From Streptomyces sp. NBC_00102 (GTDB taxonomy: Bacteria > Actinomycetota > Actinomycetes > Streptomycetales > Streptomycetaceae): a stretch of DNA of 64,000 nt. This document shows positions 12,802-32,856 of the stretch, in pieces. The first letter of the stretch is position 1. Each line of letters starts with the position of its first letter. A model generated the notes under the pieces. It saw only the letters and a list, made by a program, of their open reading frames with translations. It made no database searches and was not told the DNA's origin. The position numbers and the translations under genes were made by a program. Where the stretch lies: the NCBI RefSeq assembly GCF_026343115.1, contig NZ_JAPEMC010000004.1, positions 62,001 through 126,000 of the forward strand. Reading direction: 5' to 3'.

Positions 12802-12884
12802 CCCGTCGCAATGAACGTGTGTCAGATCGACCGGAGCGCACCTTCCTCGCGCGGACCGGAAGAGGCACCTCGCGGAGGGGAACC

Positions 12885-14345
12885 ATGACCAACGCCGAGG
12901 CTGGTACCGGCACACCCGCCGAGGCGTCGTCGCCCGCGGCCAAACTGACTCTGATCACCCTGACGACCATGGTCGTCGGCTCCATGGTCGGCGCCGGCGT
13001 CTTCTCGCTGCCCCGGCGGTTCGCCGAGGAGACGGGGGTCGCCGGTGCCCTGATCTCGTGGGCAGTCGCAGGCATCGGCATGCTGATGCTCGCCTTCGTC
13101 TTCCAGAAACTCGCGGTCCGCAAACCCGACCTCGACGCAGGTGTGTACGCCTACGCCAAGGCCGGGTTCGGTGAGTACCTCGGCTTCTTCTCGGCCTTCG
13201 GCTACTGGGCCAGCGCCTGCGTCGGCAACGTGACCTACTGGGTCCTCATCATGTCCACCATCGGGGCCATCGCCCCGGCCCTCGGAGACGGAGACACGGC
13301 GCTCGCCATCGTGCTCTCGTCGGTGGGGCTGTGGGCGTTCTTCTTCCTCATCCGGCGCGGGGTGAAGGAAGCGGCGGCGATCAACCGCATCGTGACGGTG
13401 GCGAAGGTCGTCCCGATCCTCGTCTTCGTGATCCTCGCCCTCTTCTGCCTCGACACCTCCGTCTTCGCCGACAACTTCGGCGGCGCCGACTACGCGGGCT
13501 CGCTCTTCAACCAGGTGCGCGGCACCATGCTGGCCACCGTCTTCGTCTTTCTCGGAGTCGAGGGGGCCAGCGTCTACTCCCGCCATGCCAAGCGCCGCGA
13601 GGACGTGGGCCGGGCCACCGTCCTCGGGTTCCTCAGTGTCTTCGCGGTCTTCGCCTCCGTCACCATCGTCTCGTACGGCATCATGCCGATGGGCGAGATC
13701 GCCGAACTCCGACAACCGTCCATGGCCGGGGTACTGGAAGCGGCGGTCGGCACCTGGGGCAAGGTCTTCGTGAGCGTGGGGCTCATCATCTCGGTCCTCG
13801 GCGCCTACCTGGCGTGGACGCTGATGGCCGCAGAGGTGCTCTTCGTCGCCGCCAAGGACGACGACATGCCCCGCTTCCTGGGCCGCTCCACCGCCGCGGA
13901 CGTGCCCGTGCCGGCCCTGCTCATGACCACCGCGCTCAGTCAGATCGTCCTCGTCATCACCGCCTTCTCGGACGACGCTTTCAACTTCGCGCTCGACCTG
14001 ACCAGCGCGCTCACCCTGATCCCGTTCCTGCTGGCCGCCGCCTTCGCCGTGAAGATCGCGCTGCGGCCCGAACGCGAAGGCGCAGTCGGCGGCGCCACCA
14101 GGGGAGAGCTGATCGTCGCCGCCCTCGCGACCCTCTACACGGCCTTCCTGCTCTACGCCGCGGGGCTGAAGTTCGTCCTCGTCTCGTTCATCATCTACGC
14201 CCCGGCGACCTTCCTCTTCATCAAGGCCAGGCGGGAGCAGAACCGCGGGCTCTTCTCACCGGCCGAAGCGGTCATCTGCGCCGTCTCGATCGCGGGTGCC
14301 GTCATGGGCGTGATCGCCCTGGCTGCCGGCTGGATCGAACTCTGA
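12885..14345 (+). CDS. arcD: APC-family arginine:ornithine antiporter
   Basis: A 486-residue membrane protein. ATG 12885 is preceded by GGAGGGG; an in-frame start at 12819 is not. The N-terminus has the APC signature GSMVGAGVFSLPRRFAEETG (helix 1 unwound region), followed by about twelve hydrophobic segments including AFGYWASACVGNVTYWVLIM. It resembles the arginine/ornithine antiporters ArcD/YdgI, which exchange extracellular arginine for ornithine. The downstream arginine deiminase gene 48 bp away supports this substrate. The charged cytoplasmic loops and the C-terminal helix pair are complete. Confidence 0.87.
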   Translation: MTNAEAGTGTPAEASSPAAKLTLITLTTMVVGSMVGAGVFSLPRRFAEETGVAGALISWAVAGIGMLMLAFVFQKLAVRKPDLDAGVYAYAKAGFGEYLGFFSAFGYWASACVGNVTYWVLIMSTIGAIAPALGDGDTALAIVLSSVGLWAFFFLIRRGVKEAAAINRIVTVAKVVPILVFVILALFCLDTSVFADNFGGADYAGSLFNQVRGTMLATVFVFLGVEGASVYSRHAKRREDVGRATVLGFLSVFAVFASVTIVSYGIMPMGEIAELRQPSMAGVLEAAVGTWGKVFVSVGLIISVLGAYLAWTLMAAEVLFVAAKDDDMPRFLGRSTAADVPVPALLMTTALSQIVLVITAFSDDAFNFALDLTSALTLIPFLLAAAFAVKIALRPEREGAVGGATRGELIVAALATLYTAFLLYAAGLKFVLVSFIIYAPATFLFIKARREQNRGLFSPAEAVICAVSIAGAVMGVIALAAGWIEL

Positions 14346-14393: not shown

Positions 14394-15653
14394 ATGACTG
14401 ACACGAGCGCCCGGAGGCCCGCCCTCGGCGTCCACTCCGAGGTCGGCAAACTGCGCAAGGTCCTGGTCTGCGCACCGGGGATGGCGCACCGGCGGCTCAC
14501 CCCCACCAACGCGGACGACCTGCTCTTCGACGACGTGATGTGGGTGGAGAACGCCCAGCGCGACCACGCCGACTTCGTCAACAAGATGCGCCAGGCCGAC
14601 GTCGAGGTCGTCGAACTGCACGAGCTGCTCGCCGAGACCATGGCGATCCCGGCCGCCCGGGACTGGCTGCTGGACCGCAAGATCACCGCCAACGAGGTCG
14701 GCCTCGGGCTCATCGACAACACCCGAGGCTTCCTGGAGTCGCTGGAGCCCCGTCGGCTCGCCGAGTACCTGATCGGCGGGCTCGCCACCACGGACCTCCC
14801 CGACGAGTTCCGCTCCGGCTACCTGGCTCTGGCCCGCGAGTCGACGGCCGCCCGCGAATACCTCATGCCGCCGCTGCCGAACACCCTCTACACCCGGGAC
14901 ACCACCTGCTGGCTCTACGGAGGCGTCACCCTCAACCCCCTGTACTGGCCCGCCCGCCACGGCGAGACGCTCCTGATGGCCGCCATCTACGCCTTCCACC
15001 CCGACTACCGGGGCGCGAAGGTGTGGTGGGGCGACCCGGAGCAGGACTGGGGCCAGGCCACCTTCGAGGGCGGCGACATCATGCCGGTCGGCAACGGGGT
15101 CGTCCTCATGGGGATGAGCGAGCGGACCTCGCGCCAGGCCATCACGCAGGTCGCCGCCGCCCTCTTCCGCGAGGGCGCCGCCGAACGCGTCATCGTCGCG
15201 GGCATGCCCAAGCTGCGTTCCGCCATGCACCTGGACACCGTCTTCACCTTCGCCGACCGCGACATCGTGACGCTCTATCCGAGGATCATGGACGCGGTCC
15301 ACACCTTCTCCCTCCGCCCCAGCGACAAGGCCCCGGGCGTCGAGATCACGGACGAGGGCTCCACCCCCTTCGTCGACGTCGTGGCCGAAGGGCTCGGTCT
15401 GCCCGCACTGCGGGTGATCGAGACGGGGGGCGACGTGTACGCCTCCGAGCGCCAGCAGTGGGACAGCGGGAACAACGCGGTGGCGCTGGAGCCCGGCGTC
15501 GTCTTCACCTACGACCGCAACACGCAGACGAACACCCTGCTGCGCAAGGCGGGCGTGGAGGTCGTCACCATCGTCGGCGCGGAGCTGGGACGCGGACGCG
15601 GCGGCGGCCACTGCATGACCTGCCCGCTCGTCCGCGACCCCGTCTCCTTCTGA
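14394..15653 (+). CDS. arcA: arginine deiminase
   Basis: A 419-residue enzyme from ATG 14394. It opens [15 protein letters not shown] and contains [53 protein letters not shown] and near the C-terminus GGGHCMTCP with the catalytic Cys at about residue 407. It hydrolyses L-arginine to citrulline and ammonia, the first step of the arginine deiminase pathway. With the antiporter upstream it can take in arginine and raise cytoplasmic pH. The genes arcB and arcC needed for ATP formation are not in the window. Confidence 0.95.
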
Positions 15654-16839: not shown

Positions 16840-18189
16840 TCAGGGCCGCCCGACGCGTACCGTGATCGTCTTCGGCCGCTGGTACTCGTCCAGGGCGAGC
16901 ACGCTCAGATCGGTGCCGTGCCCCGAGGAACCCCGTCCGCCGTGCGGGAGTTCGGCCGTCTGTACCAGATGGCAGTTGACCCAGGCCTCGCCCGCGTCGA
17001 GCCGGGACGCCAGATCGATCCCCCGCTCCAGATCGCTCGTCCACACGCTGGACGCCAACGCCTGGGGCACGCTGTTGGCGAGGCTCAGCGCATCCTCGAC
17101 GGTGTCCGCCCGCTCGACGGTGAGCAGCGGGCCGAAGACCTCCTCGACGATCGCGGGGTCGGCCGGCGGCAGATCGGCGAGCACCCGTGCCGGGCGCCAG
17201 TGGCCGTTCTCCTCGCCCGGCGCAGCCCCGACCGTGCCGGTCACCTCGCGTCCCGCCTTCGAGGCCGAGACGATCCGGTCGTAACGGGCGGCCTGGTCCG
17301 CGTTGTTCAGCGGCCCGAAGTCCCGACCCGCGACCCGCTCGGACATCGCCGCGCCGAGCAGTGCGACCACGCTCTCGTAGTTCTCCGCCGGCGTGATCAC
17401 CCGCGCGGGCGCCGCGCAGCTCTGGCCGGCGTTGTACGTGGCCGCCCGCGCGAGTTCCGCGAAGGTCTGCGGAGGGGCGTCGGGGAGGACGATCGCCGGG
17501 GCGTTGCCGCCCAGTTCCAGGCTGACCCGGCGGATGCCCGCGCGGACAGCGACGTCCCGGCCCGCCTCCGGGCTGCCGGTGAACGCCACCATGTCGATTC
17601 CGGCCCCCACCAGCAGCCGCCCCGTCTCCCGGTCGCCCGGCAGTACTTGGAGCACCCCCTCGCCGAGTTCAGCGACCGCGTGGGCGGCGAGCAGCAGCAG
17701 GGAGTCCGGAGTGGTCTCGGCCGGTTTGACCACGACGGTGTTCCCGGCGGCCAGCGCGGGCGCACAGCGCCAGGCCGCCATCATCAGCGGGTAGTTCCAG
17801 GGCACCACCACACCGACCACACCGATCGGCTCCCACCGCACCCAGCTCTCGTGACCGGCGACCAGCGCGCCCGAGGCCGGTACGGTCCTGGTCCGCGCCG
17901 CCGTCGCGTAGAACCGGAAGAGGTCCGCCACCTGCGCGATCTCGCCCCGCGTCTCCGACTCCGGCTTGCCGGTCCCGGCGCGCTCGCACGCGGAGTACGC
18001 CGCCGCGTGCGCCTCGACCGACGCGGCCAGAGCGCCCAGGCGTTCGGCCCGCTCCCGGGGGGTGAGGGCGCTCCACCCGGGCAACGCGGCCCGGGCGGCC
18101 GACACCGCCCCGGCCACCTCCGGCTCCCGCGACACGGGCGCCGTGCCGCGCGCGAGGCCGGTCCGGGGATCGGTGAGGGTGCTCTTCAT
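16840..18189 (-). CDS. aldehyde dehydrogenase, aminobutyraldehyde type
   Basis: A 449-residue NAD(P)-dependent dehydrogenase from ATG 18189 with GGAGGT upstream. It has GVVVPWNYPLMMAAWR, VVVKPAETTPDS, FTGSPEAGR, the general base Glu225 in SLELGGNAP, and the nucleophile Cys258 in NAGQSCAAP. The end ELPHGGRGSSGHGTDLS resembles gamma-aminobutyraldehyde and betaine aldehyde dehydrogenases. It would oxidise an amino aldehyde to the acid. It lies 57 bp behind the asparagine-synthetase-like gene, as the last gene of the seven-gene array; whether it shares their transcript is inferred from spacing only. Confidence 0.9.
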   Translation of the reverse strand: MKSTLTDPRTGLARGTAPVSREPEVAGAVSAARAALPGWSALTPRERAERLGALAASVEAHAAAYSACERAGTGKPESETRGEIAQVADLFRFYATAARTRTVPASGALVAGHESWVRWEPIGVVGVVVPWNYPLMMAAWRCAPALAAGNTVVVKPAETTPDSLLLLAAHAVAELGEGVLQVLPGDRETGRLLVGAGIDMVAFTGSPEAGRDVAVRAGIRRVSLELGGNAPAIVLPDAPPQTFAELARAATYNAGQSCAAPARVITPAENYESVVALLGAAMSERVAGRDFGPLNNADQAARYDRIVSASKAGREVTGTVGAAPGEENGHWRPARVLADLPPADPAIVEEVFGPLLTVERADTVEDALSLANSVPQALASSVWTSDLERGIDLASRLDAGEAWVNCHLVQTAELPHGGRGSSGHGTDLSVLALDEYQRPKTITVRVGRP

Positions 18190-18246: not shown

Positions 18247-20022
18247 TCAGATGTCGTACGAACGGAGCCAGAGCTCCAGCGTGAGGACGAGCCAGAGCTT
18301 CCCGCCCTGGCGCGGCAGCAGGGTGCCCCCGCCCTTCAGCCAGGTACGGATGGTGTCGGTGCGGAACAGGCCCCGCTCCCGGGCCCCGCGCCCCAGCAGA
18401 AGGTCGTTGCCGAGGTCCCGCAGCGGCCCGGTCAGCCACTGCTGCACCGGCACTCTCATCCCGCTCTTGGGACGGTCCACGACGGTTCCGGGCAGCAGAT
18501 CGCGCACCGCTTCCTTGAGGATCCACTTCTCCACCGTGCCCCGGAGCTTGTACCCCGGGGGAGTGGCGAAGGCGTGGTCGACCACCCGGCGGTCGAAGAG
18601 CGGAGCGCGGCCCTCGATGCCCTGGGAGGAGGTCAGCCGCTCGACCTTGGTCAGGATGTGGTGGGCCCCCTTGGTCCGCAGGTTGCAGTGGAGCAGCTGG
18701 TTGAGGAGGCTCGCCATGCGGTACGGGCTGTCCGGGCCCGGCATCAGGTACGGCTCGACGAAGCGCTGCGGGCGGGGAGCGTCCGCCAGCGCGTCCAGCG
18801 CCTGCGGGGTCAGCAGCACCGGGAGGTCCGTCCAGCACTTGCGGTACGAGCGCAGATAGGCGGTGGCCCGGTCCTCGTCCCACGGCGCCCCGGGTTCCCG
18901 GTGCATCTCCTGGACCAGCATCGGGAGGTTCTTCGGTCCGCCGAAGACGGGGTCGCCGCCCTCGCCGTTGAGCACCACCGACGCCCCCTCGTCGGCCACC
19001 GCCTCCGCCAGCAGCAGATTGGGCACCGTCAGCGGGTCGCCCACCGGACTGTCGAGGAGCGAGGCCGCCTCCGCGAGCCGCGCGGCGACCGTCGTTCCGG
19101 ACACGTTCAGCACCCTGTGCCGGGTTCCGCAGTGCGCGGCGACGAGACCCGAATAGCCCAGTTCGTTCGGGAGTTCGTCGCCGAAGCTGATGGAGTAGGT
19201 GCGGACCGGACGGCTGTGCAGCTTCGACGCGAGCGCGGTGACCAGCGAACTGTCGATGCCCCCGGACAGCAGCACCGCCACCGGCTCCGCCGAGGGCAGC
19301 CGGCAGGCCACCGCGTCCTCCAACAGGGCCCGCAGCGCGAGGACATGGTCGTGCGGGTCGTCGGGGACGGTCCTGCCGAGCCGTTCCGCGGGCTCCCAGT
19401 GGACGGTTTCCGTCACCGAGCCGTCCGGCGACAGCCGCAGTATCCGGCCGGGCAGCACCTCCCGCACGCCCGTCAGCAGCGTCTCCTCGCCGGGCAGGTA
19501 GGCGAACGTCAGGAACGAGCGGACCGCCGCCAGGTCCAGGGACGTGTCCAGCGTCGGCCACCGGCGCAGCGCCCGCAGCGAGGAGGAGGCGGCCCACGCA
19601 CCGTCCGCCCGCGCGTAGAAGAGGGTGCGGGCGCCCACCTGGTCGCGTACGAGCACCAGGTCGGTACCGTCGAGCACCGCCAGCACGAACATGCCCTCGG
19701 CGAGCGCCACCCCCTTCGCGCCGAGCGACGCCCAGCAGCGCAGCAGCAGTTCGGCGTCCGGGCAGCGCACCGGTGCCGGAGTGCCGTTCTCCTCCAGCGC
19801 GTTCAGCAGCACCGGCCTGTTGTGGAGGGTGACCTCACCGGTCGCGGTGAGGCCGCACGCGGTGAACGGCCCCACCGCCGGGCCCGGTTCGCCCCGCAGC
19901 AGAGCCGCGTCCGCGCCGGGTACGGCGACCTCCCGCACCTCGCCACGGATCGCGCCCATCGCCCGGACATGGGCGCGGGCCCCGTCCGTCGTGGGTGCCA
20001 GACACACACAGAACCGCGCCAT
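18247..20022 (-). CDS. asparagine-synthetase-like amide ligase lacking the glutaminase cysteine
   Basis: A 591-residue protein from ATG 20022 behind GGAAGGGGAG. The N-terminal half keeps the class II amidotransferase fold (CPDAELLLRCWASLGAKG, GMFVLAVLDG, LVRDQVGARTLFYA) but begins MARFCVC instead of MCG, so the N-terminal nucleophile is absent. The C-terminal half has the PP-loop SGGIDSS at residues 253-259, GEGGDPVFGG and IEGRAPLFDRRVVDHA of the ATP-dependent synthetase domain. Beta-lactam and carbapenam synthetases have the same combination: ATP activation without glutamine-derived ammonia. It probably joins a carboxylate to another amine; the substrate is unknown. Confidence 0.85.
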   Translation of the reverse strand: MARFCVCLAPTTDGARAHVRAMGAIRGEVREVAVPGADAALLRGEPGPAVGPFTACGLTATGEVTLHNRPVLLNALEENGTPAPVRCPDAELLLRCWASLGAKGVALAEGMFVLAVLDGTDLVLVRDQVGARTLFYARADGAWAASSSLRALRRWPTLDTSLDLAAVRSFLTFAYLPGEETLLTGVREVLPGRILRLSPDGSVTETVHWEPAERLGRTVPDDPHDHVLALRALLEDAVACRLPSAEPVAVLLSGGIDSSLVTALASKLHSRPVRTYSISFGDELPNELGYSGLVAAHCGTRHRVLNVSGTTVAARLAEAASLLDSPVGDPLTVPNLLLAEAVADEGASVVLNGEGGDPVFGGPKNLPMLVQEMHREPGAPWDEDRATAYLRSYRKCWTDLPVLLTPQALDALADAPRPQRFVEPYLMPGPDSPYRMASLLNQLLHCNLRTKGAHHILTKVERLTSSQGIEGRAPLFDRRVVDHAFATPPGYKLRGTVEKWILKEAVRDLLPGTVVDRPKSGMRVPVQQWLTGPLRDLGNDLLLGRGARERGLFRTDTIRTWLKGGGTLLPRQGGKLWLVLTLELWLRSYDI

Positions 20023-20067: not shown

Positions 20068-20616
20068 TCAGCCGAAGTCGTCGTCGCTCCAGCCCCCGTC
20101 GTCCTCGTCGCCCCAGTCACCGTCCCACTCGTCGTCCCCGGAGCCGCCCGAGTCGCCGAAGTCGCTGGAACCGGCGCCTTCGCCGCCCGCGCCACCGTCC
20201 CTTCCGGACGCCTCTGCCTGGCGGCGCAGTTCCTCCTCCTCGTCGGGGGACAGGCTCAGCGGCGGCAACTGTGCTTCGGTGACGGCCAGGGCCGTCACCC
20301 CGACACCGGCGAGCAGCAGGCCCATCCGGCCGCCGAAGGACGTGCGGTTGACCGTGAGCGAGTCGCGCCCCCAGACGGTCCGCCCGTACCCGATGTCCCG
20401 GCCGTACGAGACGCCGCCGTTGGAGACGCGTTTGACGATGCGGTCGCCGAGGAGCTCGTCGGTGCCCGACGCCGATCTGTTGTCGTGCCAGCGCACCAGC
20501 CCCGGTACCGAGGGATCGCGCCGGCGCCATTCCTGCCGGCCGTCCTCGTAGGTGCGGTGCACACTGCCGTCCGCCAGCAGCTCGTCGCTGTAGCCGGTCT
20601 CTCTCGGCCTGATCAT
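20068..20616 (-). CDS. unknown protein with one hydrophobic segment and Gly/Asp-rich acidic tail
   Basis: A 182-residue protein from ATG 20616, 12 bp after the third Toprim-like gene. I do not recognise a family. The N-terminal 90 residues contain short beta-like motifs (DGSVHRTYEDGRQEWRRRDP and YGRDIGYGRTVWGRDSLT) that may be repeats. Around residues 95-115 is a weak hydrophobic segment (MGLLLAGVGVTALAVTE), and the last 45 residues are Gly, Asp, Ser and Trp (DDEWDGDWGDEDDGGW). Tight spacing ties it to the array, between the Toprim-like triplet and the amide ligase. Codon usage is normal for the window. Confidence 0.65.
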   Translation of the reverse strand: MIRPRETGYSDELLADGSVHRTYEDGRQEWRRRDPSVPGLVRWHDNRSASGTDELLGDRIVKRVSNGGVSYGRDIGYGRTVWGRDSLTVNRTSFGGRMGLLLAGVGVTALAVTEAQLPPLSLSPDEEEELRRQAEASGRDGGAGGEGAGSSDFGDSGGSGDDEWDGDWGDEDDGGWSDDDFG

Positions 20617-20628
20617 GGTCTGCGGTCC

Positions 20629-21570
20629 TCAGGGTCGTCCGGTCGAATCGGGCCAGGTCAAAAAACCCTTGGTGCGCAGGTCCCGCAGTCCGGCCCACAC
20701 GCCGGCGCGCGGTATCCGCGGTCCCCGGGTGAGACGCAGCACCCCGCGGACCAGCCGCTCGGGAGATACGGCGGCGACCTCGGCGAAACGGCCCCGGGCC
20801 AGCCACGCCGTCTCCTGCGGCCGGAGCGTTCCGGGGAGTCCGGCGAGTTCCGCCCCATGGACCGGTCCGCGCCCGGCCGGCAGCCGCATGGCCTGCGCAT
20901 GGCGCGGTACGAGCCCCAGGGAGGACACCCGCACGCCGGGAACCGGCCCGAGAGCCGCCCGGACCTGGCCGCGCAGGGCGATTCCCCGAGGGCTCGCGTC
21001 GTGGAGGACGTACACCGTCGCCCCACCCGCGCGCTCCAGGGCGCCGGTCAGCCCCGGGTCGAACGGCAGCGCCCCGGCCACCGCCAGGACCGGGCAGGCC
21101 GCTTCCAAATGGACGTGGTTGGCCAGCAGCATCCGGGCGATCCCACGGTCCTGGCAGACCAGGAGACGGGGCAGTCCGTAGGAGTAAAGGTCGGGTTCGC
21201 TCGCCCGCTCCGGGGCGCGCGACTCCTTCGGCGGAGGCGGAGGCGGCGGCAGCAGGCCCGGGACGGTGTCCCGCCCCCGGGCGTCCAGGGCACGGGTGAA
21301 CGACGGCAGCCGCAGATACGGCCGCGCGGTGCGCGGAACCCGGCTCAGCACGGTCAGCGAGGGATCGAGCACCCGGCAGGTCTCGAAATACAACTGCCGT
21401 TCGGTGAACCGGAGGCCGCCCTGTCCGGCTGCCCGCACGGCCGCGGCGTCGATCGCGGCGTGCAGGGCGGCGTCCAGCGCGCGGGCGAGCAGGCGGGCGC
21501 CGGGCACGCCGGGCCGGTCCCGGTCCTGGAGGGCGCGCGCCCCGGTGGCGGGAGGGCGTCGCGGTGTCAT
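20629..21570 (-). CDS. Toprim-like paralogue 3 (TopoVI-A/Spo11-like C-terminus, GFLTWP tail)
   Basis: A 313-residue protein from ATG 21570, overlapping the previous stop by ATGA, with AGGAG in place. It lacks the zinc ribbon and membrane helices of its two upstream paralogues. Shared blocks are GGLRFTERQLYFETCRVL (residues 51-68), LLVCQDRGIARML (136-148), VYVLHDASPRGIALR (186-200), VRVSSLGLVPR (213-223) and GFLTWPDSTGRP at the very end. The order E/D motif, DxD-like motif, LGL-P recalls the Toprim half of TopoVI-A/Spo11, but the second acidic position is Ser193 and a proline-rich linker (residues 105-114) interrupts. Possibly non-catalytic. Confidence 0.7.
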   Translation of the reverse strand: MTPRRPPATGARALQDRDRPGVPGARLLARALDAALHAAIDAAAVRAAGQGGLRFTERQLYFETCRVLDPSLTVLSRVPRTARPYLRLPSFTRALDARGRDTVPGLLPPPPPPPKESRAPERASEPDLYSYGLPRLLVCQDRGIARMLLANHVHLEAACPVLAVAGALPFDPGLTGALERAGGATVYVLHDASPRGIALRGQVRAALGPVPGVRVSSLGLVPRHAQAMRLPAGRGPVHGAELAGLPGTLRPQETAWLARGRFAEVAAVSPERLVRGVLRLTRGPRIPRAGVWAGLRDLRTKGFLTWPDSTGRP

Positions 21571-22757
21571 GAGGTGCTCCTGTCGTGCTTCCGGTCGCTG
21601 CGGGAACGGGTACCGGCTCCGGAGGGCAGTGGTTTCCCGACGGTGTCGGGCCAGGTGAGGAATCCCTGGGCGAGCGGGCTCCCGGGGAGGTACGGCGGCG
21701 GGGCGGGCGCCCTCACGGCGTGCTCGACGGCCTTGGTGACGGCCTCGGCGAGTACCGGGGGAGGCACCGCGGCGATCGGCCACCACCAGCCCTCGGCCAG
21801 CGCCTCGGCCTCCTGCTCGGGCACGCCTGCCACCGTGCGGAGCAGTTCCGCGTCCAGCCCCGTACCCGCGGAGAAGCGGCGGACGGCACGCCTGTTGCGG
21901 GAGACCGCCCCCGGCCGGAGCCCGGCGTCCACGACGGTCCGGCCGGGATGGGCCGCCCGGAGAACGGGTACGAGCAGGGTGCCCGCCGCGTCCGCGTCGT
22001 GCACCACCACGACCGGCAGACCGGTCCGGTGACCTGCCAGCAGCTCCAGAACCTCACGCACACGTCCGGGCCCGTCCGGGCCGCCGGTGCGCCCGGCCGC
22101 CTTGGTGGTCAGGAGGTTGTGCGGGCGGTCCGGCAGCCGGTTCTCCATGAGGAAGCGTGCGACGACCGGCTCCGTGCAGAGGACGACCACCTCCGGCGGC
22201 CCCGATCGCTCCTTGACCCCGCGCCGACGTGCGGCGGTGCCGGCCGCGCGGCGGTCGTCCACCACCCCCTCGGGCAGCCCGCCGTAGGTCGCCGTCCAGG
22301 CACCGTGCATCAGCGCACGGAACGTGCTTTCCGGCGGCTGCACCAGTGCGGACGCGGGCCGCTCCGGCCGGTGGCGCAGCGCCGCCGCGAGGACCAGCAC
22401 CACCGGGACGAGCCACAGGCAGACCGTCCCGAGCCCGCCCCGCGCCACTACGGCCCCCGCCACCAGCGCGGCGGAGAGCGGCAGCGCGACGGCCCAGCGC
22501 ACCCACGCCCGTATTCCGCGCCGGGGGGACGCCTCCGAGGACGGGTTGGACGACCGGCACGCGTACCAGAGCTGGGTCAGGGTGATCCTCAGCCGGCCGT
22601 CGCCGGTGGCCCGCTCGACGCGGCGTCGGATGCGCAGGTCGTGCATCCCCGCCCCGTCCGACCACGGATCGAGGGCGAAACGCCTTCCGCAGCGCACACA
22701 TGTGCCGCCGACGCGTTCCTTCCGGTTGATCCGCGTCTCGCAGCCCGGGCAGATCAC
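21567..22757 (-). CDS. Toprim-like paralogue 2: zinc ribbon, membrane helices, Toprim-like core, GFLTWP tail
   Basis: A 396-residue protein from GTG 22757 in a GTGA overlap with the upstream stop. A zinc ribbon (C3, C6, C20, C23) is followed by DLRIRRRVERATGDGRLRIT and TQLWYACRSS (41-70), two hydrophobic segments (about 86-128), YGGLPEGVVDD (158-168), VVVLCTEPVVARFL (190-203), VVVVHDADAAGTLL (249-262), DAGLRPG (277-283) and QGFLTWPDTVGKP (364-376). Glu196 and the pair Asp254/Asp256 fit the Glu and DxD metal-binding motifs of Toprim domains. No known family name comes to mind. Membrane anchoring of such a domain is unusual. Confidence 0.72.
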   Translation of the reverse strand: MICPGCETRINRKERVGGTCVRCGRRFALDPWSDGAGMHDLRIRRRVERATGDGRLRITLTQLWYACRSSNPSSEASPRRGIRAWVRWAVALPLSAALVAGAVVARGGLGTVCLWLVPVVLVLAAALRHRPERPASALVQPPESTFRALMHGAWTATYGGLPEGVVDDRRAAGTAARRRGVKERSGPPEVVVLCTEPVVARFLMENRLPDRPHNLLTTKAAGRTGGPDGPGRVREVLELLAGHRTGLPVVVVHDADAAGTLLVPVLRAAHPGRTVVDAGLRPGAVSRNRRAVRRFSAGTGLDAELLRTVAGVPEQEAEALAEGWWWPIAAVPPPVLAEAVTKAVEHAVRAPAPPPYLPGSPLAQGFLTWPDTVGKPLPSGAGTRSRSDRKHDRSTS

Positions 22758-23845
22758 TCTCCGCCCCCTTCCGCCGGGCCGGGGGAGGGCCAGGTCAGAA
22801 AGCCCAACTCGGCGGCCCCGGCGCGAGCGGTATCGGGGCGTCCGGTGGCCCTGGCCGCGCACCGCGTGACGGCGTCCAGCAGCCGGGCCGGAGGCAGCCC
22901 GACGAGCGGAAACCCCCAGCCGCGTCCCAGCCACTTCAGTTCCGCCTCGGTGAACGCGCCGAGAGCGGCGAGTTCCCGTCGCGCCGCGGCGTCGGGCCGG
23001 CGCCACCGGTCGCGTACCGGCACCGCATGGGCGAGGCCGCGGACCTTGCGGACGGGAAGTCCGGCGTCCACCACCCTGACCCGCGGAAGCGCCTCGCGGA
23101 CGCGCCGGGCGAGCAGGGCACCGTGCGCGTCGGCGTCGTGCAGCACGATCACCGGCCCCCGGGGCGCGAGGGCCGCGGCCTCGTCGAGGGTGCGGACGAG
23201 CGCGAGGCCGTAGTCGTCGGCCACCCCCTCGGCAGCGAGGAACGCGATGATCGACGGATCGGGACAGAGCAGGACACCCGGGGCCCCGGCGTCCCGGGGT
23301 GGCGCGGGGGCCACCGTCTTCCGCCGCGCGGGCCGGACGCTCTGCGGCTTCCACTCCCGTACGGGGTCGTCCACCATGCCCGTCGGCAGCTCGCCGTACA
23401 CCCTCAGCCACGGGGCGAGGACCCGGGAGCGGAAGGCGTCGCGGTCCACGGCCGGAACACCCCGGCCCACCCCGGTGCTGCGGGCGACGACCAAGGACAC
23501 CGACACCAGCGACAGAATCCCGCCGGCGACGACGGCCGGTACGAAGGGGATCACGACACCGGCCAGCAGGAGCCCGAAGCCCAGCACACCCGTCAGAGGG
23601 TTCCAGACCGCGCCGAGGCCGCTGGTCCGCAGCGAACGGCGGGACAGCGCGTACCAGAGCTGCCCGGGAGCGACCGCGAGCCGGCCGTCGGCCGACAGCG
23701 CGGCCATCGCGCGCCGCACCCGGAGGTCGCTCAGCTTGAGGGCGTTGGTCTTCGGGTCCAGCGCGTAGACGCGCCGGCAGTAGGCGCACCTGTTGCCGGG
23801 ACGTTCCTTGCGGAGCAGCTCGTGCTCGCAGTGCGGACAGATCAC
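22754..23845 (-). CDS. Toprim-like paralogue 1: zinc ribbon, membrane helices, Toprim-like core, GFLTWP tail
   Basis: A 363-residue protein from GTG 23845, in a GTGA overlap with the cupin stop. The zinc ribbon reads CPHC (3-6) and CAYC (20-23). Then come LKLSDLRVRRAMAALSADGR and GQLWYALSRR (61-70), membrane helices at about 84-122, YGELPTGMVDD (150-160), GVLLCPDPSIIAFL (190-203), VIVLHDADAHGALL (232-245), VRVVDAGLP (256-264) and LGFLTWP (347-353). The same blocks occur in the next two genes, so the three are paralogues. Asp196 takes the place of the usual Toprim Glu. The function is unknown; nucleic-acid binding is inferred from the fold resemblance only. Confidence 0.72.
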   Translation of the reverse strand: MICPHCEHELLRKERPGNRCAYCRRVYALDPKTNALKLSDLRVRRAMAALSADGRLAVAPGQLWYALSRRSLRTSGLGAVWNPLTGVLGFGLLLAGVVIPFVPAVVAGGILSLVSVSLVVARSTGVGRGVPAVDRDAFRSRVLAPWLRVYGELPTGMVDDPVREWKPQSVRPARRKTVAPAPPRDAGAPGVLLCPDPSIIAFLAAEGVADDYGLALVRTLDEAAALAPRGPVIVLHDADAHGALLARRVREALPRVRVVDAGLPVRKVRGLAHAVPVRDRWRRPDAAARRELAALGAFTEAELKWLGRGWGFPLVGLPPARLLDAVTRCAARATGRPDTARAGAAELGFLTWPSPGPAEGGGE

Positions 23846-24549
23846 GGGCGCGCCTCCAGGGCCGTCGCCACCCGGCGCAGCCGGTCCGCCAGACGCTCCC
23901 GGACCGTGGCCGGGGCGATGCCGTGCACCCGCTGGCGCTCCTCCACGGAGCGCAGGGCCGTCGCGAGGGCCCGGAAGTCGGTGGCGGCCGCCGTGGCGAG
24001 AGCGCCGCGCCCCTGGCGGGCAGCACCGCCGCGGGCGCGGCGCTCCGCCTCCGGGGCGGTGATCGCGTAGTCCTCGTGGTCGATGCCGTATCCCGTGTTC
24101 GCCGTCACGATGGTCAGCGGACGCTTCCCCCGGTTGGCGAAGGAGTGGGGCATCAACTCCGGAATGCGTATGAGCATCCCGGGCACGAGCGGTACCTCGG
24201 CGGTCCTCCCGCGCTCGACGTCCCAGAGCCCGCAAGAGGCGTGACCGAGGGACAGCACGTAGTGCTCGCCGCCGTGGGCGTGCGGGGTGAACGCGCTCCG
24301 GGGGCCGACCAGCCCGAGTTTCACCGTCGCGTTGGACGGCCGCTCCGGGGACGTCGCCGCGTCGCCCACCAGGTAGTGGGCGAACTGTCCGTCGTCGATG
24401 AAGGGAATCATCCCGCCGTCGGGGCCCAGCGGCCGGCAGCCGTCACGGTCGGCGACGACGACGGAACCGTCCGGGCGCACATGGTAAAGACGCACCCCGC
24501 GGGGCAGCAGCCCCCGCACCCGGTCCGGTATCTCCCCGCCCGTACCCAT
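23842..24549 (-). CDS. cupin-domain protein, first gene of the seven-gene array
   Basis: A 235-residue protein from ATG 24549 behind GGGGGAGG. The middle holds a single cupin barrel: SAFTPHAHGGEHYVLSLG gives the HxH...E metal motif 1, and IRIPELMPHSFANRGKRPL gives motif 2 with its His. The N-terminus (VRLYHVRPDGSVVVADRDG) and the helical C-terminus (SVEERQRVHGIAPATVRERL) are not recognised. It could be a metal-dependent enzyme or a ligand-binding sensor. Its stop overlaps the start of Toprim-like paralogue 1 by four bases, so the two are translationally coupled. Confidence 0.78.
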   Translation of the reverse strand: MGTGGEIPDRVRGLLPRGVRLYHVRPDGSVVVADRDGCRPLGPDGGMIPFIDDGQFAHYLVGDAATSPERPSNATVKLGLVGPRSAFTPHAHGGEHYVLSLGHASCGLWDVERGRTAEVPLVPGMLIRIPELMPHSFANRGKRPLTIVTANTGYGIDHEDYAITAPEAERRARGGAARQGRGALATAAATDFRALATALRSVEERQRVHGIAPATVRERLADRLRRVATALEARP

Positions 24550-29058: not shown

Positions 29059-32000
29059 TTGACCATCAAACCCACCGGCAGATATGTCCTGCCGGTCATC
29101 GGAGCTGTCCTGCTGGCCGCCGTGGCGATCCCATCGGCGACCGGCACCGCATCCGCCGTTTCCAGCACCGTCCCGGGCAGTGCGCCGAGCGCTCCTGCCG
29201 CCGGTCCCGGAAAGTCCTCCACCGTCACCCTGGTGACGGGCGACAAGGTCACCGTCACCACCAAGGGGAATCTCCCCGCCGCGATATCGGTGGTCGGACC
29301 GGACGGCGCGGAAGCCGCGGCGAGCATCACCACCGTCGGTGACGACACCTTCGTCTACCCGGCAGCCGCCCGCCCCTACCTGGCCTCCGGGCAGATCGAC
29401 CAACGTCTCTTCAACGTCACCCAGTTGATCGCGGACGGCTACGACGACGCGCACATGGACCACGTGCCGCTCATCGTCACGTACGACTCCGCCGCCGCGT
29501 CCCGCAGCGCTGCCGGCAACGGCGGCAACGGTCTGCTCAGGTCCGCTGCCGAACCCGCCGACGCGCATCTGCTCACCAGTGTCGACGGGGTCGCGCTGGC
29601 CGAGGATCACGACGACGTCGCCGACTTCTGGAAGTCGCTCACCGCCGCCCCCGCCGCCTCGTTCGCCCGGGATGCCGGTAAGCCGGCCGCGGACGGCTTC
29701 TCGGGCGGTGTCGCCAAGGTGTGGCTGGACGGCAAGGCCGAGGCACTGATGGCCGACTCCACCGAGCAGATCGGCGCCCCCGAGGTCTGGCAGGGCGGCA
29801 ACACCGGTGAAGGAGTGGACGTCGCCGTTCTGGACAGCGGATACGACGTCGAGCACCCCGACCTCCAGAACATCGCCTCCTCGGAAAGCTTCGTCCCGGA
29901 CGAGGACATCGACGACTTCCACGGGCACGGCACGCACGTCGCCTCCACCATCGCCGGCAGCGGTGCCGCCTCCGGGGGCAAGGAGAGGGGCGTCGCTCCC
30001 GGCGCGAGGCTGCACGTCGGCAAGGTGCTCGACATGACCGGAAGCGGCCAGGACTCCTGGATCCTCGCGGGCATGGAATGGGCCGCGCGGGACGCCAAGG
30101 CCAAGATCATTTCCATGAGCCTCGGAAGCGACGCCCCGAGCGACGGCACCGACCTGCTCAGCCTGGCGGTCGACGAACTCAGCGCCGAGACCGGTGCCCT
30201 GTTCACCATCGCCGCCGGGAACGCCGGTCCCGGAGCCCACACCATCGGCTCCCCGGGCACCGCGGATGCGGCCCTCACGGTCGGCGCGGTCGACTCGGCG
30301 GACGCCCTCGCGGACTTCTCCAGCCGCGGCCCGCGCTTCGCCGACGACGGCATCAAGCCCGAGATCACGGCACCCGGTGTCGACATCCTCGCCGCCCGCT
30401 CCCGGAACAGCTGGGACGGCGAGGGGTACTACACGACGAAGAGCGGCACCTCGATGGCCACCCCGCACGTCGCGGGCGTCGCCGCCCTGCTGGCGGCCGA
30501 GCACCCCGACTGGACGGGCGCGCAGCTCAAGGACGCACTGGTCAGCACCTCCAAGGCGCTGCCCGCGATCGGCGTCGACGACGGCGGCAACGGCCGGGTG
30601 GACGCGGTGGCCGCCACGAGGGCCACCCTCTTCGCCACCGCGGCGGTGGACGCCGGAATCCACTCCCTGGGCGGTGCGCCCGGTGAGACGGTGGACAAGA
30701 CCGTCGAGTGGACCAACACCGCCGACTCCGCGGTGGTCGTCGACCTCTCGACGGAGGCGTCCGGCGCTCCCGAGGGGCTCTTCACGCTCTCGGCCGACCG
30801 GCTCACCGTACCCGCCCACGGAAGCGCCTCGGCGACCCTGACGACGCACCTGGACGAGGCACCCGCCGCGCACCGCTTCACCAGCCGGGTCATCGGCACC
30901 CTGAACGGCACCGTGGCGACCCGCACCCTCGTCGGCGTCAGCACCCAGGAGAAGCCCTACCACCTCAAGATGAAGCTCCTCGACCAGCAGGGCAACCCGG
31001 TCGTGGGGAACACCCTGGTCGAGCTGCTCCGTCAGGGCGGCGGCGACTACGCGTACAGCTATGCCGGGACGGACAACGGTGTCATCGACACGGTCGTCGC
31101 TCCCGGTACGTACGCGGTCTGGTCGCTGGCGACCGTCAAGGGAACCCACGGCGCCTCGTCCGAGGGCCTCGGCCTGCTCGACGCCCCGTCCGTCGAGGTC
31201 CACCAGGACACCGAACTCGTCCTGGGCGGAGCCGCCCTCCACGAGGCCCGAGCCGTCACCCCCCGGCCCGCGACCCCGGACAACCAGGGGCGCGTCGACT
31301 ACATCCGCGTGTTCGACAGCGGAGAGGGTGCGATGTCCAACCTGACCGTCGGCACCCGCTACGACAGCGTCTGGCTCCAGCAGGCGCCGAAGGTCACAGA
31401 CGGAAACACCCTGGTCACCCTCCGCTGGCGCAAGAAACAGCCCGTCCTGAGCGTGACTTCGGGCAGCCAGAACCTGGACGACCTCTGGGTGGCGCCCGGT
31501 TCGGGCAGTCTGCCCCCGGGCGACAGCACCGTCGACGCGGTGTTCGCCGTTGACGGGCTCGCCGACGACTACGCCGCCCTCGGCGCCGGAAAGGCGCAGA
31601 ACAAGGCCGTGGTCGTCCGGCAGAGCGACGACGAGGACGACGCGGACGAGCAGATCACCGAGGCCGAGAACGCCGGAGTGAAGCTTCTCCTCATCGTCAA
31701 GAACGGCAACGGCCGGCTGTACGACGCGGTCAAGCGCACCAAGGTGGCCGTCGCCGGGATCACCGCGAGCAGCGGCAACGCACTCGTCGCCCGCATCGGC
31801 GCGAGCACCACCGGGACCGCGCGCCTGCGTATCGCCTCCCACCCCGACACGGACTACCTCTACGACCTCGTGAAGTCCTGGAAGGACCGGATTCCGGCCG
31901 ACGTCACCTACGCCCCGAAGGAGCGGGAACTCGCCAAGGTCGAGGTCGACTTCCGCAACGACCCCACGCACAGCGTCGACGAGTACCGCTTCGACATCCA

Positions 32001-32856
32001 GCCCTACGCCACCATGCGCAGCGGGGTGACCGCGCTGTCCACCGCGGGGGCGCACCGCACCGACTACGTCACCACCGACAGCTCGTTCCGCTGGTACGAG
32101 GAGACGTACGAGTACGCTCCCAAGCTCGGCCCGCAGTCCCTGCAGGGATCGGAGCTGATCGAGTACCCGGCCGGACGGACCACCGAGGTCACCTGGTTCG
32201 GCCCGTTCCAGCGGCCCCGGGTCAACACCAGCATCGACCTGCCCACCCGCACCGGCTCCGAGATCGCCGCCTACGTGCCCGGCTGGGGCGACTCCGGTGA
32301 GAACCACGCGGGAACCGCCGGCTACGGACCCAACACGCAGACCACGGAGCTCTATCGCAACGGAAAGCTCGACGCCACCACGGACGGCGGCTACCTCTAC
32401 GCCGACGTGCCCGACGCCAAGGCGTCGTACCGCCTGGTGACCACCACCGCCCGCACCGGCGACTACCCCCTCTCGACCAGCACCAGGACGGAGTGGACCT
32501 TCGAATCCAAGGCGGCGATGGACCCGGAGGAGGTGGGCCAGCTCCCGCTGATCCAGCTCGACTACGACCTCGACACCGCCGCCGACGGATCGGCGAAGAG
32601 GAACGCCCCCCTCCTCGTCACCCCGTCCCACCTGCCCGGCGGGCCGAAGGCGTCGCTTCGCACCACCGCCGTCGAGCTCTCCTACGACGACGGCGCGCAC
32701 TGGCACAAGACGTCCGTCCGGTCCACCTCGAAGGGTGCCTCGGTCCGGCTGGACGCCCCCCGCGGCACGGACTACGTCACGGTGCGGGTGCACGCCACCG
32801 ACAGCCGGGGCAACACCGTCACCCAGACCATCGTCCGGGCGGCGGGCATCGCCTGA
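29059..32856 (+). CDS. large secreted subtilisin-family serine protease
   Basis: A 1265-residue precursor. The start is TTG 29059, placed right after GAGGAA. Residues 1-33 are a Sec signal peptide (YVLPVIGAVLLAAVAIPSAT, then GTASA). After a prodomain, the S8 triad is clear: Asp in VAVLDSGYD (near 258), His in DFHGHGTHVAS (near 290) and Ser in KSGTSMATPHVAG (near 462), with oxyanion Asn in TIAAGNAGPGAH. The remaining 750 residues are extracellular beta-rich domains, including a PA-like stretch (LLIVKNGNGRLYDAVKRT) and an Asp-rich segment. Such large Streptomyces subtilases degrade proteins outside the cell. A hairpin terminator follows at 32933. Confidence 0.93.
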   Translation: MTIKPTGRYVLPVIGAVLLAAVAIPSATGTASAVSSTVPGSAPSAPAAGPGKSSTVTLVTGDKVTVTTKGNLPAAISVVGPDGAEAAASITTVGDDTFVYPAAARPYLASGQIDQRLFNVTQLIADGYDDAHMDHVPLIVTYDSAAASRSAAGNGGNGLLRSAAEPADAHLLTSVDGVALAEDHDDVADFWKSLTAAPAASFARDAGKPAADGFSGGVAKVWLDGKAEALMADSTEQIGAPEVWQGGNTGEGVDVAVLDSGYDVEHPDLQNIASSESFVPDEDIDDFHGHGTHVASTIAGSGAASGGKERGVAPGARLHVGKVLDMTGSGQDSWILAGMEWAARDAKAKIISMSLGSDAPSDGTDLLSLAVDELSAETGALFTIAAGNAGPGAHTIGSPGTADAALTVGAVDSADALADFSSRGPRFADDGIKPEITAPGVDILAARSRNSWDGEGYYTTKSGTSMATPHVAGVAALLAAEHPDWTGAQLKDALVSTSKALPAIGVDDGGNGRVDAVAATRATLFATAAVDAGIHSLGGAPGETVDKTVEWTNTADSAVVVDLSTEASGAPEGLFTLSADRLTVPAHGSASATLTTHLDEAPAAHRFTSRVIGTLNGTVATRTLVGVSTQEKPYHLKMKLLDQQGNPVVGNTLVELLRQGGGDYAYSYAGTDNGVIDTVVAPGTYAVWSLATVKGTHGASSEGLGLLDAPSVEVHQDTELVLGGAALHEARAVTPRPATPDNQGRVDYIRVFDSGEGAMSNLTVGTRYDSVWLQQAPKVTDGNTLVTLRWRKKQPVLSVTSGSQNLDDLWVAPGSGSLPPGDSTVDAVFAVDGLADDYAALGAGKAQNKAVVVRQSDDEDDADEQITEAENAGVKLLLIVKNGNGRLYDAVKRTKVAVAGITASSGNALVARIGASTTGTARLRIASHPDTDYLYDLVKSWKDRIPADVTYAPKERELAKVEVDFRNDPTHSVDEYRFDIQPYATMRSGVTALSTAGAHRTDYVTTDSSFRWYEETYEYAPKLGPQSLQGSELIEYPAGRTTEVTWFGPFQRPRVNTSIDLPTRTGSEIAAYVPGWGDSGENHAGTAGYGPNTQTTELYRNGKLDATTDGGYLYADVPDAKASYRLVTTTARTGDYPLSTSTRTEWTFESKAAMDPEEVGQLPLIQLDYDLDTAADGSAKRNAPLLVTPSHLPGGPKASLRTTAVELSYDDGAHWHKTSVRSTSKGASVRLDAPRGTDYVTVRVHATDSRGNTVTQTIVRAAGIA

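Follow-up and report, generated by a model that had tools for sequence, protein, structure and literature searches.

Organisation of the cassette and paralogy of A, B and C

We analysed three adjacent genes, here called A, B and C, and their surroundings in a 64,000-nucleotide stretch of Streptomyces sp. NBC_00102 (contig NZ_JAPEMC010000004.1, positions 62,001 to 126,000; hereafter the window). A preliminary description of this DNA had reported three tandem paralogues with a Toprim-like core at positions 20629-23845. Its coordinates are exact and its list of motifs is right, while the trio proves to be part of a larger cassette that its reader missed: along the minus strand, the genes run cupin-like, A, B, C, D, AsnB-like and aldehyde dehydrogenase (ALDH) (Table 1). 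The stop and start codons overlap by four bases at the cupin-A, A-B and B-C junctions of the window. Across loci, this overlap was found in all 25 cupin-A pairs measured and in 30 of 31 A-B pairs, and the 32 B-C pairs comprise 23 four-base overlaps, two one-base overlaps, six gaps of one and one outlier; in these counts the start codons were chosen by us and some genomes are counted twice. At loci without B, five of the six A-C pairs gave odd gaps (-154 to +28), which are caused by the start choices.

Table 1. Genes of the cassette in the window
Gene	Position	Strand	Features
Cupin-like protein (235 aa)	23842..24549	-	First cassette gene
A (363 aa, GTG start)	22754..23845	-	Zinc ribbon, QLWY block, two hydrophobic stretches, Toprim-like domain (CPD, HDAD), GFLTWP
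B (396 aa, GTG start)	21567..22757	-	Paralogue of A, layout as in A (CTE, HDAD)
C (313 aa, ATG start)	20629..21570	-	FTERQLYF, Toprim-like domain (CQD, HDAS), GFLTWP near C-terminus
D (182 aa)	20068..20616	-	Conserved N-terminal domain, one hydrophobic stretch, Gly/Asp/Trp-rich tail with DDDFG end
AsnB-like ATP-dependent amide ligase (591 aa)	18247..20022	-	LLSGGIDSS synthetase motif, no Cys at residue 2
ALDH (seventh gene)	16840..18189	-	Nearest to aminobutyraldehyde dehydrogenases

The paralogy of A, B and C was already claimed in the preliminary description and is not due to chance, since hhalign matched C (30 rows) to A/B (41 rows) with a probability of 99.5 and an E-value of 2.5e-23 over 161 columns. 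The matched columns are the Toprim-like half and the tail, and C is a paralogue without the ribbon or the hydrophobic stretches. The C alignment (A1) holds 29 of 44 C rows and the window's C, and the joint alignment (A2) 39 of 72 A and B rows and the window's two. The ordered blocks that had been read from the window by eye (QL(W/Y)(Y/F), LC-x-E/D, HDAD/HDAS and others) are conserved in these alignments. So are the four cysteines of the putative zinc ribbon of A and B (C3, C6, C20 and C23), each at least 90% conserved, and the membrane helices suggested for the same two proteins fit the hydrophobic stretches of each (the best two average 2.39 and 2.04 in A, 2.53 and 1.84 in B); both proteins look membrane-bound by prediction. 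The pattern GF[LM][TS]WP occurs three times in the six-frame translation of the window (127,996 aa), and each of the three proteins has one copy. Among distinct rows, a wider form, G[FY][LM][TSD]WP, is present in all 30 of B, in 39 of 40 of A and in 38 of 41 of C, counts that take in partial rows and the window's own. A median of 11 residues follows this motif in A and 19 in B; the hexapeptide described as the common end of the three proteins is thus present in all of them, but lies near the end of A and B and not at it.

Predicted fold of A and C

Single-chain AlphaFold2 models were built for A and C. That of A reached a mean predicted local distance difference test score (pLDDT) of 87.6 and a predicted template modelling score (pTM) of 0.84 (41-row alignment). 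The model of C had a mean pLDDT of 84.7 and a pTM of 0.78; its 29-row alignment (A3) contains 28 of the 44 C rows and the window's, with some starts chosen anew and one locus (L038) excluded for a masked run. When Foldseek's candidates were given a second look with VIA-align, the first nine rows for C were topoisomerase VI (six entries; scores 11.8, 11.7, 10.3, 10.0, 9.5 and 9.4), a nuclease of C. glutamicum (8b7f, which we take to be MksG; 10.8), JetD (9.8) and Spo11 (8.8), matched over 141-162 residues. Next came a small Toprim protein (8.7), another Spo11 row (8.5) and a designed Rossmann protein (8.5). The six leading rows for A were topoisomerase VI (four entries; 10.2, 10.1, 9.3 and 8.8), the same nuclease (9.7) and JetD (8.9), over 133-162 residues, and the next row, an unrelated protein, drops to 6.6. 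Foldseek alone is weaker than VIA-align on this likeness: for A it ranked TopoVI-A first (E-value 0.011, probability 0.95) and JetD second and third. C matched nothing in BFVD below an E-value of 0.001, with phage DnaG-type primases among the best rows, which is consistent with a Toprim domain. The match covers about residues 112-284 of C and 163-336 of A.

Within the limits of predicted models, then, A and C have a Toprim fold of the TopoVI-A type. Structure prediction had been named beforehand as a check on this fold, and both models show it; of the likeness to TopoVI-A/Spo11 that was originally proposed, the Toprim assignment stands for A and C, while catalysis is not established and is partly contradicted by the residues described below. 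That the match is a mere generic Rossmann-like resemblance is very improbable, since topoisomerase VI and JetD-type chains head the ranking for each of two separate models (133-162 residues, some shorter for C) and the HD-x-x block aligns with the DxD stretch of JetD-like rows. The blocks that hold the GFLTWP-type motif have a pLDDT of 59 in C and of 73 and 52 in A, for which reason the motif looks like a flexible docking peptide.

Curated families did not name these proteins. Scans of A, B, C and D against Pfam, NCBIfam and PADLOC at E-values up to 10 gave no family above its cut-off; the weak rows, all below cut-off, were FA_desaturase, DUF6703, DUF5389, Terminase_6, Tcp10_C, SCO2097 and RNA polymerase subunit P. 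Among these scans, no Pfam row of the TopoVI-A/Spo11 families or of JetD_C appeared for A, B or C. PDB sequence profiles returned three and four rows, none named as a Toprim protein (best E-values 0.18 and 0.084). In the genome itself, PF21180 had no match, and the matches of PF09983 (JetD_C) lie elsewhere. One JetD_C match of the same genome (L070, G000:C9:13652-13864; 32.3 bits, cut-off 22) belongs to a protein that keeps ENADTF and GDLDADG, unlike A, B and C.

Conserved residues of the putative active site

The Toprim parts of A, B and C, joined with the row of a relative from the cyanobacterium Gloeothece verrucosa (see below), were aligned with 15 JetD-like rows, taken from the 15 of 28 loci tried where our motif was found. 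The hhalign score was 25.3 (probability 8%), a value reached by none of 200 column shuffles (maximum 24.0). Companion comparisons scored 16.8-26.2 against 10.1-16.8 for reversed controls, and the joined parts scored 12.5-14.3 against the AsnB, cupin and D alignments. In this profile alignment HD-x-x faces the GDxD of JetD, and the Glu of JetD falls opposite the residue that follows the conserved Cys; in the window, this residue is Gln in C, Pro in A and Thr in B.

The blocks vary as follows in the aligned rows, from which 10 A, 1 B and 2 C rows were omitted as short or masked. Among 39 C rows, the Cys block reads CQD in 30, CES in 4, CQS in 2, CQN in 2 and CQH in 1, and the HD block HDAS in 33, HDAG in 3 and HDTG in 2, with one wrong-frame row. 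B (29 rows) has HDAS in 17, HDAD in 8 and HDAG in 4. The second Asp of DxD is therefore Ser or Gly in 38 of 39 C rows and 21 of 29 B rows. In A (30 rows), Pro follows the Cys or Ala in 26, and the fourth position of HDxx is Asp in 20. The acid two residues after the Cys (LC-x-E/D) is conserved in all 29 B rows, in 29 of the 30 A rows and in 30 of the 39 C rows. Since the residue directly after the Cys stands two residues ahead of the next helix in the models, we favour it as the Glu position on our interpretation of the JetD pattern. The register may, however, be shifted by one, which would make the second residue after the Cys the Glu position and give the window's A and B three acids. Judged by sequence, the acids of the putative metal site of C are incomplete on either register, and the acidic set of Toprim domains (Glu plus DxD) is not found there.

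Ahead of the Toprim-like domain, C carries a T-x-R-x-L-Y-(Y/F) block like the 5Y-CAP motif of Spo11, and the N-terminal part may accordingly be a 5Y-CAP winged helix on the strength of this motif. The second position of the QL block, presumably that of the catalytic Tyr of Spo11, is Tyr in all 29 B rows and in 28 of the 30 A rows; C has YY in 30 of 36 readable rows and YF in 6, including the window's.

These residues bear on whether A, B and C are an active, membrane-tethered Spo11/JetD-like nuclease or topoisomerase that cuts DNA, for instance in defence. The structures found to be most like them belong to DNA-cleaving enzymes. In the window, A and B retain the Cys-x-acid block, HDAD and the Tyr of QLWY, and the FTERQLYF of C resembles the 5Y-CAP motif. 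Yet C is without the second Asp and 6 of its 36 readable rows lack the Tyr, the Gloeothece relative reads HNAN, and A, B and C do not share the EN...GDxD pattern of JetD-like rows, although JetD and 8b7f are the next-best structural matches and give a weak profile match in register. The trio likewise differs from topoisomerase VI A/Spo11, the best structural match of both A and C, in a metal site whose acids seem only partly preserved, in the Phe of the window's C at the Tyr position, in the zinc ribbon and hydrophobic stretches of A and B, and in its metabolic neighbours. Searches for partners and defence families were negative: the TopoVI-B family PF09239 had no match in the genome (4 of 14 control genomes were positive), no SMC genes occur among the conserved neighbours (cupin, D, AsnB-like and ALDH), the partners being metabolic enzymes, and the PADLOC defence library had no match for A-D. 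We consider DNA cleavage an unlikely role.

Distribution and conservation of the cassette

Among 199 genomes of the genus, C occurs in 12, the window's own included, and D in the same 12. The 31 C loci in genome contigs comprise 26 from Streptomyces, 1 from Actinacidiphila, 2 from Rhodococcus and 2 from Virgisporangium. In a sample of 396 genomes of the phylum, A was counted in three (G000, G247 and G528; the own genome included, one near a contig end) and D in two. The A/B profile matched 8 of the 396; those not counted are four genomes that match about 25 ribbon positions only and one (G427) that matches about 70 positions. At E-values up to 1, 13 genomes matched, of which the same three were counted and the rest have E-values of 0.0066-0.13. 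No match of A was found in phages.

We surveyed the cassette at 35 loci (the window, L019-L049, L064, L065 and L115), and the exact order cupin-A-B-C-D-AsnB-ALDH was found at 21 of them. The AsnB-like gene is present at 33, and the two without it (L043 and L065) are cut by contig ends, as are L029 and L041. Other departures are an additional ALDH-like gene at L033, a masked run at L038, where no clear B was read, a locus without B whose A lies downstream and reversed (L042), two without B and ALDH (L047 and L048), and four without B, ALDH and the first cupin, where another cupin-type protein adjoins the cassette (L044, L045, L046 and L064). ALDH was not found at the Rhodococcus and Virgisporangium loci, at L046 or at L064, and no cupin match was seen in the 3.3 kb before A at L065. 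The second cupin-type protein was recognised by its motif by eye at L064:2314-3093, L045:6724-7521 and L046:6561-7277; that of L064 has no Pfam match. At L040:7890-9079, C lies in separate pieces with other sequence between them and the remaining cassette genes are in order. In Rhodococcus sp. JCM 9791 (L045:4963-7181), the AsnB-like gene is split into several frames and D is cut short. Beyond the cassette, no gene in a survey of neighbouring open reading frames of at least 90 aa was common to more than 9 of 33 loci.

A related locus was found in a second phylum, on a plasmid of Gloeothece verrucosa, which codes for a protein with ribbon, hydrophobic stretches and Toprim-like domain. It matches C with a tblastn E-value of 5e-14 (32.7% identity over 47% of C) and B with 4e-8 in a pair comparison, reads CQS/HNAN and lacks the GFLTWP-type motif. 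An AsnB-like protein 43% identical to the window's adjoins it, and the locus encodes two further proteins, one again AsnB-like and one resembling diaminopimelate decarboxylase, the latter below cut-off. This single locus hints that a Toprim-like and an AsnB-like protein form the core of the cassette. The Gloeothece AsnB-like protein had no match in viral contigs. Among plasmid records, C matched two, D one, P0010 two and P0013 two. An annotated protelomerase family protein lies near the Gloeothece relative (L114:16000-17361), and the plasmid is recorded as linear.

Partner proteins

The AsnB-like protein has an ATP-PPase synthetase domain (Pfam Asn_synthase, 253 bits), and SGGxDSS is kept in all 29 rows of over 500 aa; all 13 NCBIfam rows listed for it are below cut-off. 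None of its 45 rows, four of which are pieces of one broken gene, starts with Met-Cys, which makes glutamine-derived ammonia unlikely as the nitrogen source. In both respects it resembles AsnB-type ligases without the glutaminase Cys (TIGR03104 and TIGR03108), a group that presumably includes lasso peptide cyclases, but its constant partners are Toprim-like proteins and D. The first gene gave a Cupin_2 match (E-value 0.00041; 20.4 bits, below the Pfam cut-off of 27.2) and shows cupin motifs when read by eye. ALDH scored 370.5 bits with Pfam Aldedh and 413.2 bits with NF010000, below the latter's cut-off of 615.

D has one hydrophobic stretch (mean hydropathy 1.62) and a tail whose last 40 residues, in 41 tails, are 33% Gly, 26% Asp and 7% Trp. 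The protein ends in DFG in 40 of 42 rows (36 of 38 distinct), of which 20 and the window's D make up alignment A4. D shares with LysW-type amino-group carriers its acidity, an invariant tail at the C-terminus and a place next to a carboxylate-amine ligase and a dehydrogenase. LysW, however, has the C-terminus EDWGE, while that of D is DFG; D is also the larger protein and carries a hydrophobic stretch, and its ligase is AsnB-like and not of the ATP-grasp type.

Such partners would also suit a cassette that makes a small specialised metabolite or an envelope amide, with the cupin, AsnB-like protein and ALDH as its enzymes and the Toprim-like proteins either as enzymes of new chemistry, using the conserved Cys, His and Asp, or as binders of nucleotide-like intermediates. 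The aminobutyraldehyde dehydrogenase-like ALDH and the additional enzymes of the Gloeothece locus agree with this, and C139, H190 and D191 are invariant in the C alignments, with the His conserved in all 16 rows of alignment A5. However, both Virgisporangium A rows have Ala in place of the Cys, Gloeothece has Asn in place of the Asp, and outside the cassette no gene is common to more than the 9 of 33 loci given above; we consider this explanation doubtful. Decidedly unlikely, in our view, is that A, B, C and D form a sensor of membrane stress or of the envelope, with the AsnB-like enzyme and ALDH as merely useful neighbours. The ribbon, the hydrophobic stretches and the short conserved C-terminal peptides would suit a signalling assembly, and ALDH was not found at the loci named above, but the AsnB-like gene accompanies the Toprim-like proteins at every surveyed locus not cut by a contig end and in Gloeothece.

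Elsewhere in the window, we read an arginine-deiminase-like protein (14394-15653, plus strand) behind an amino-acid antiporter-like protein (12819-14345, plus strand), and a large subtilisin-like serine protease of 1265 aa (29059-32856, plus strand).

A possible role for the cassette

We tentatively favour, at less than even confidence, the view that A, B and C have a Toprim fold of the TopoVI-A/JetD type with an incomplete metal site, that two of them sit in the membrane, and that the three act, for the most part without cleaving DNA, as a scaffold or ligand-sensing part of an amide-ligase system. The cupin, A, B and C would come together in a single complex on the inner side of the membrane, with the GFLTWP ends as docking peptides for a common partner. 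The AsnB-like enzyme would adenylate a carboxylate and couple it to an amine, not to glutamine-derived ammonia, and ALDH would handle an amine-bearing aldehyde. D may be the carrier or target and provide the carboxylate from its acidic C-terminal tail; we favour this tail as the donor because it is acidic, has a constant end and lies beside the ligase.

Several results weigh against this view. The structural match covers the Toprim half only, and for C a Foldseek search of the PDB gave nothing below an E-value of 0.001 and no TopoVI-A or JetD among the 50 rows listed. C alone scored 17.2 against full-length JetD-like rows, hardly better than the top score of the reversed controls (16.8). Because they have HDAD and an acid close to the Glu position, the window's A and B may still bind metal; this combination slightly weakens both the idea of a non-cleaving scaffold and the fuller proposal given below, and strengthens that of a nuclease. 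On the side of the ligase, the start codons of the AsnB-like rows were picked by their likeness to the window's, and the D tail is linked to the ligase solely by neighbourhood, co-occurrence and acidity. Should the hydrophobic stretch of D span the membrane and leave the basic domain inside, as the likely topology has it, the tail would lie outside, away from ATP. No D-like protein was seen among the Gloeothece neighbours that were translated.

To our knowledge, TopoVI-A-type Toprim domains occur only in DNA-cleaving enzymes. The fuller proposal, that the cassette is a new modification system in which an AsnB-type ligase couples an amine to the D tail while three Spo11-like Toprim proteins, which once served in DNA cleavage and now bind ligands or partners, organise it at the membrane, is speculative and rather unlikely as a whole. 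If the favoured view is true, a DNA-cleavage fold would have found another use here, in a conserved and membrane-bound branch whose active site is incomplete and which is linked to an amide ligase in two phyla. The seven-gene cassette would then offer a defined setting for finding the role of such a reused fold, with D, whose C-terminus is strikingly constant, as a candidate substrate.

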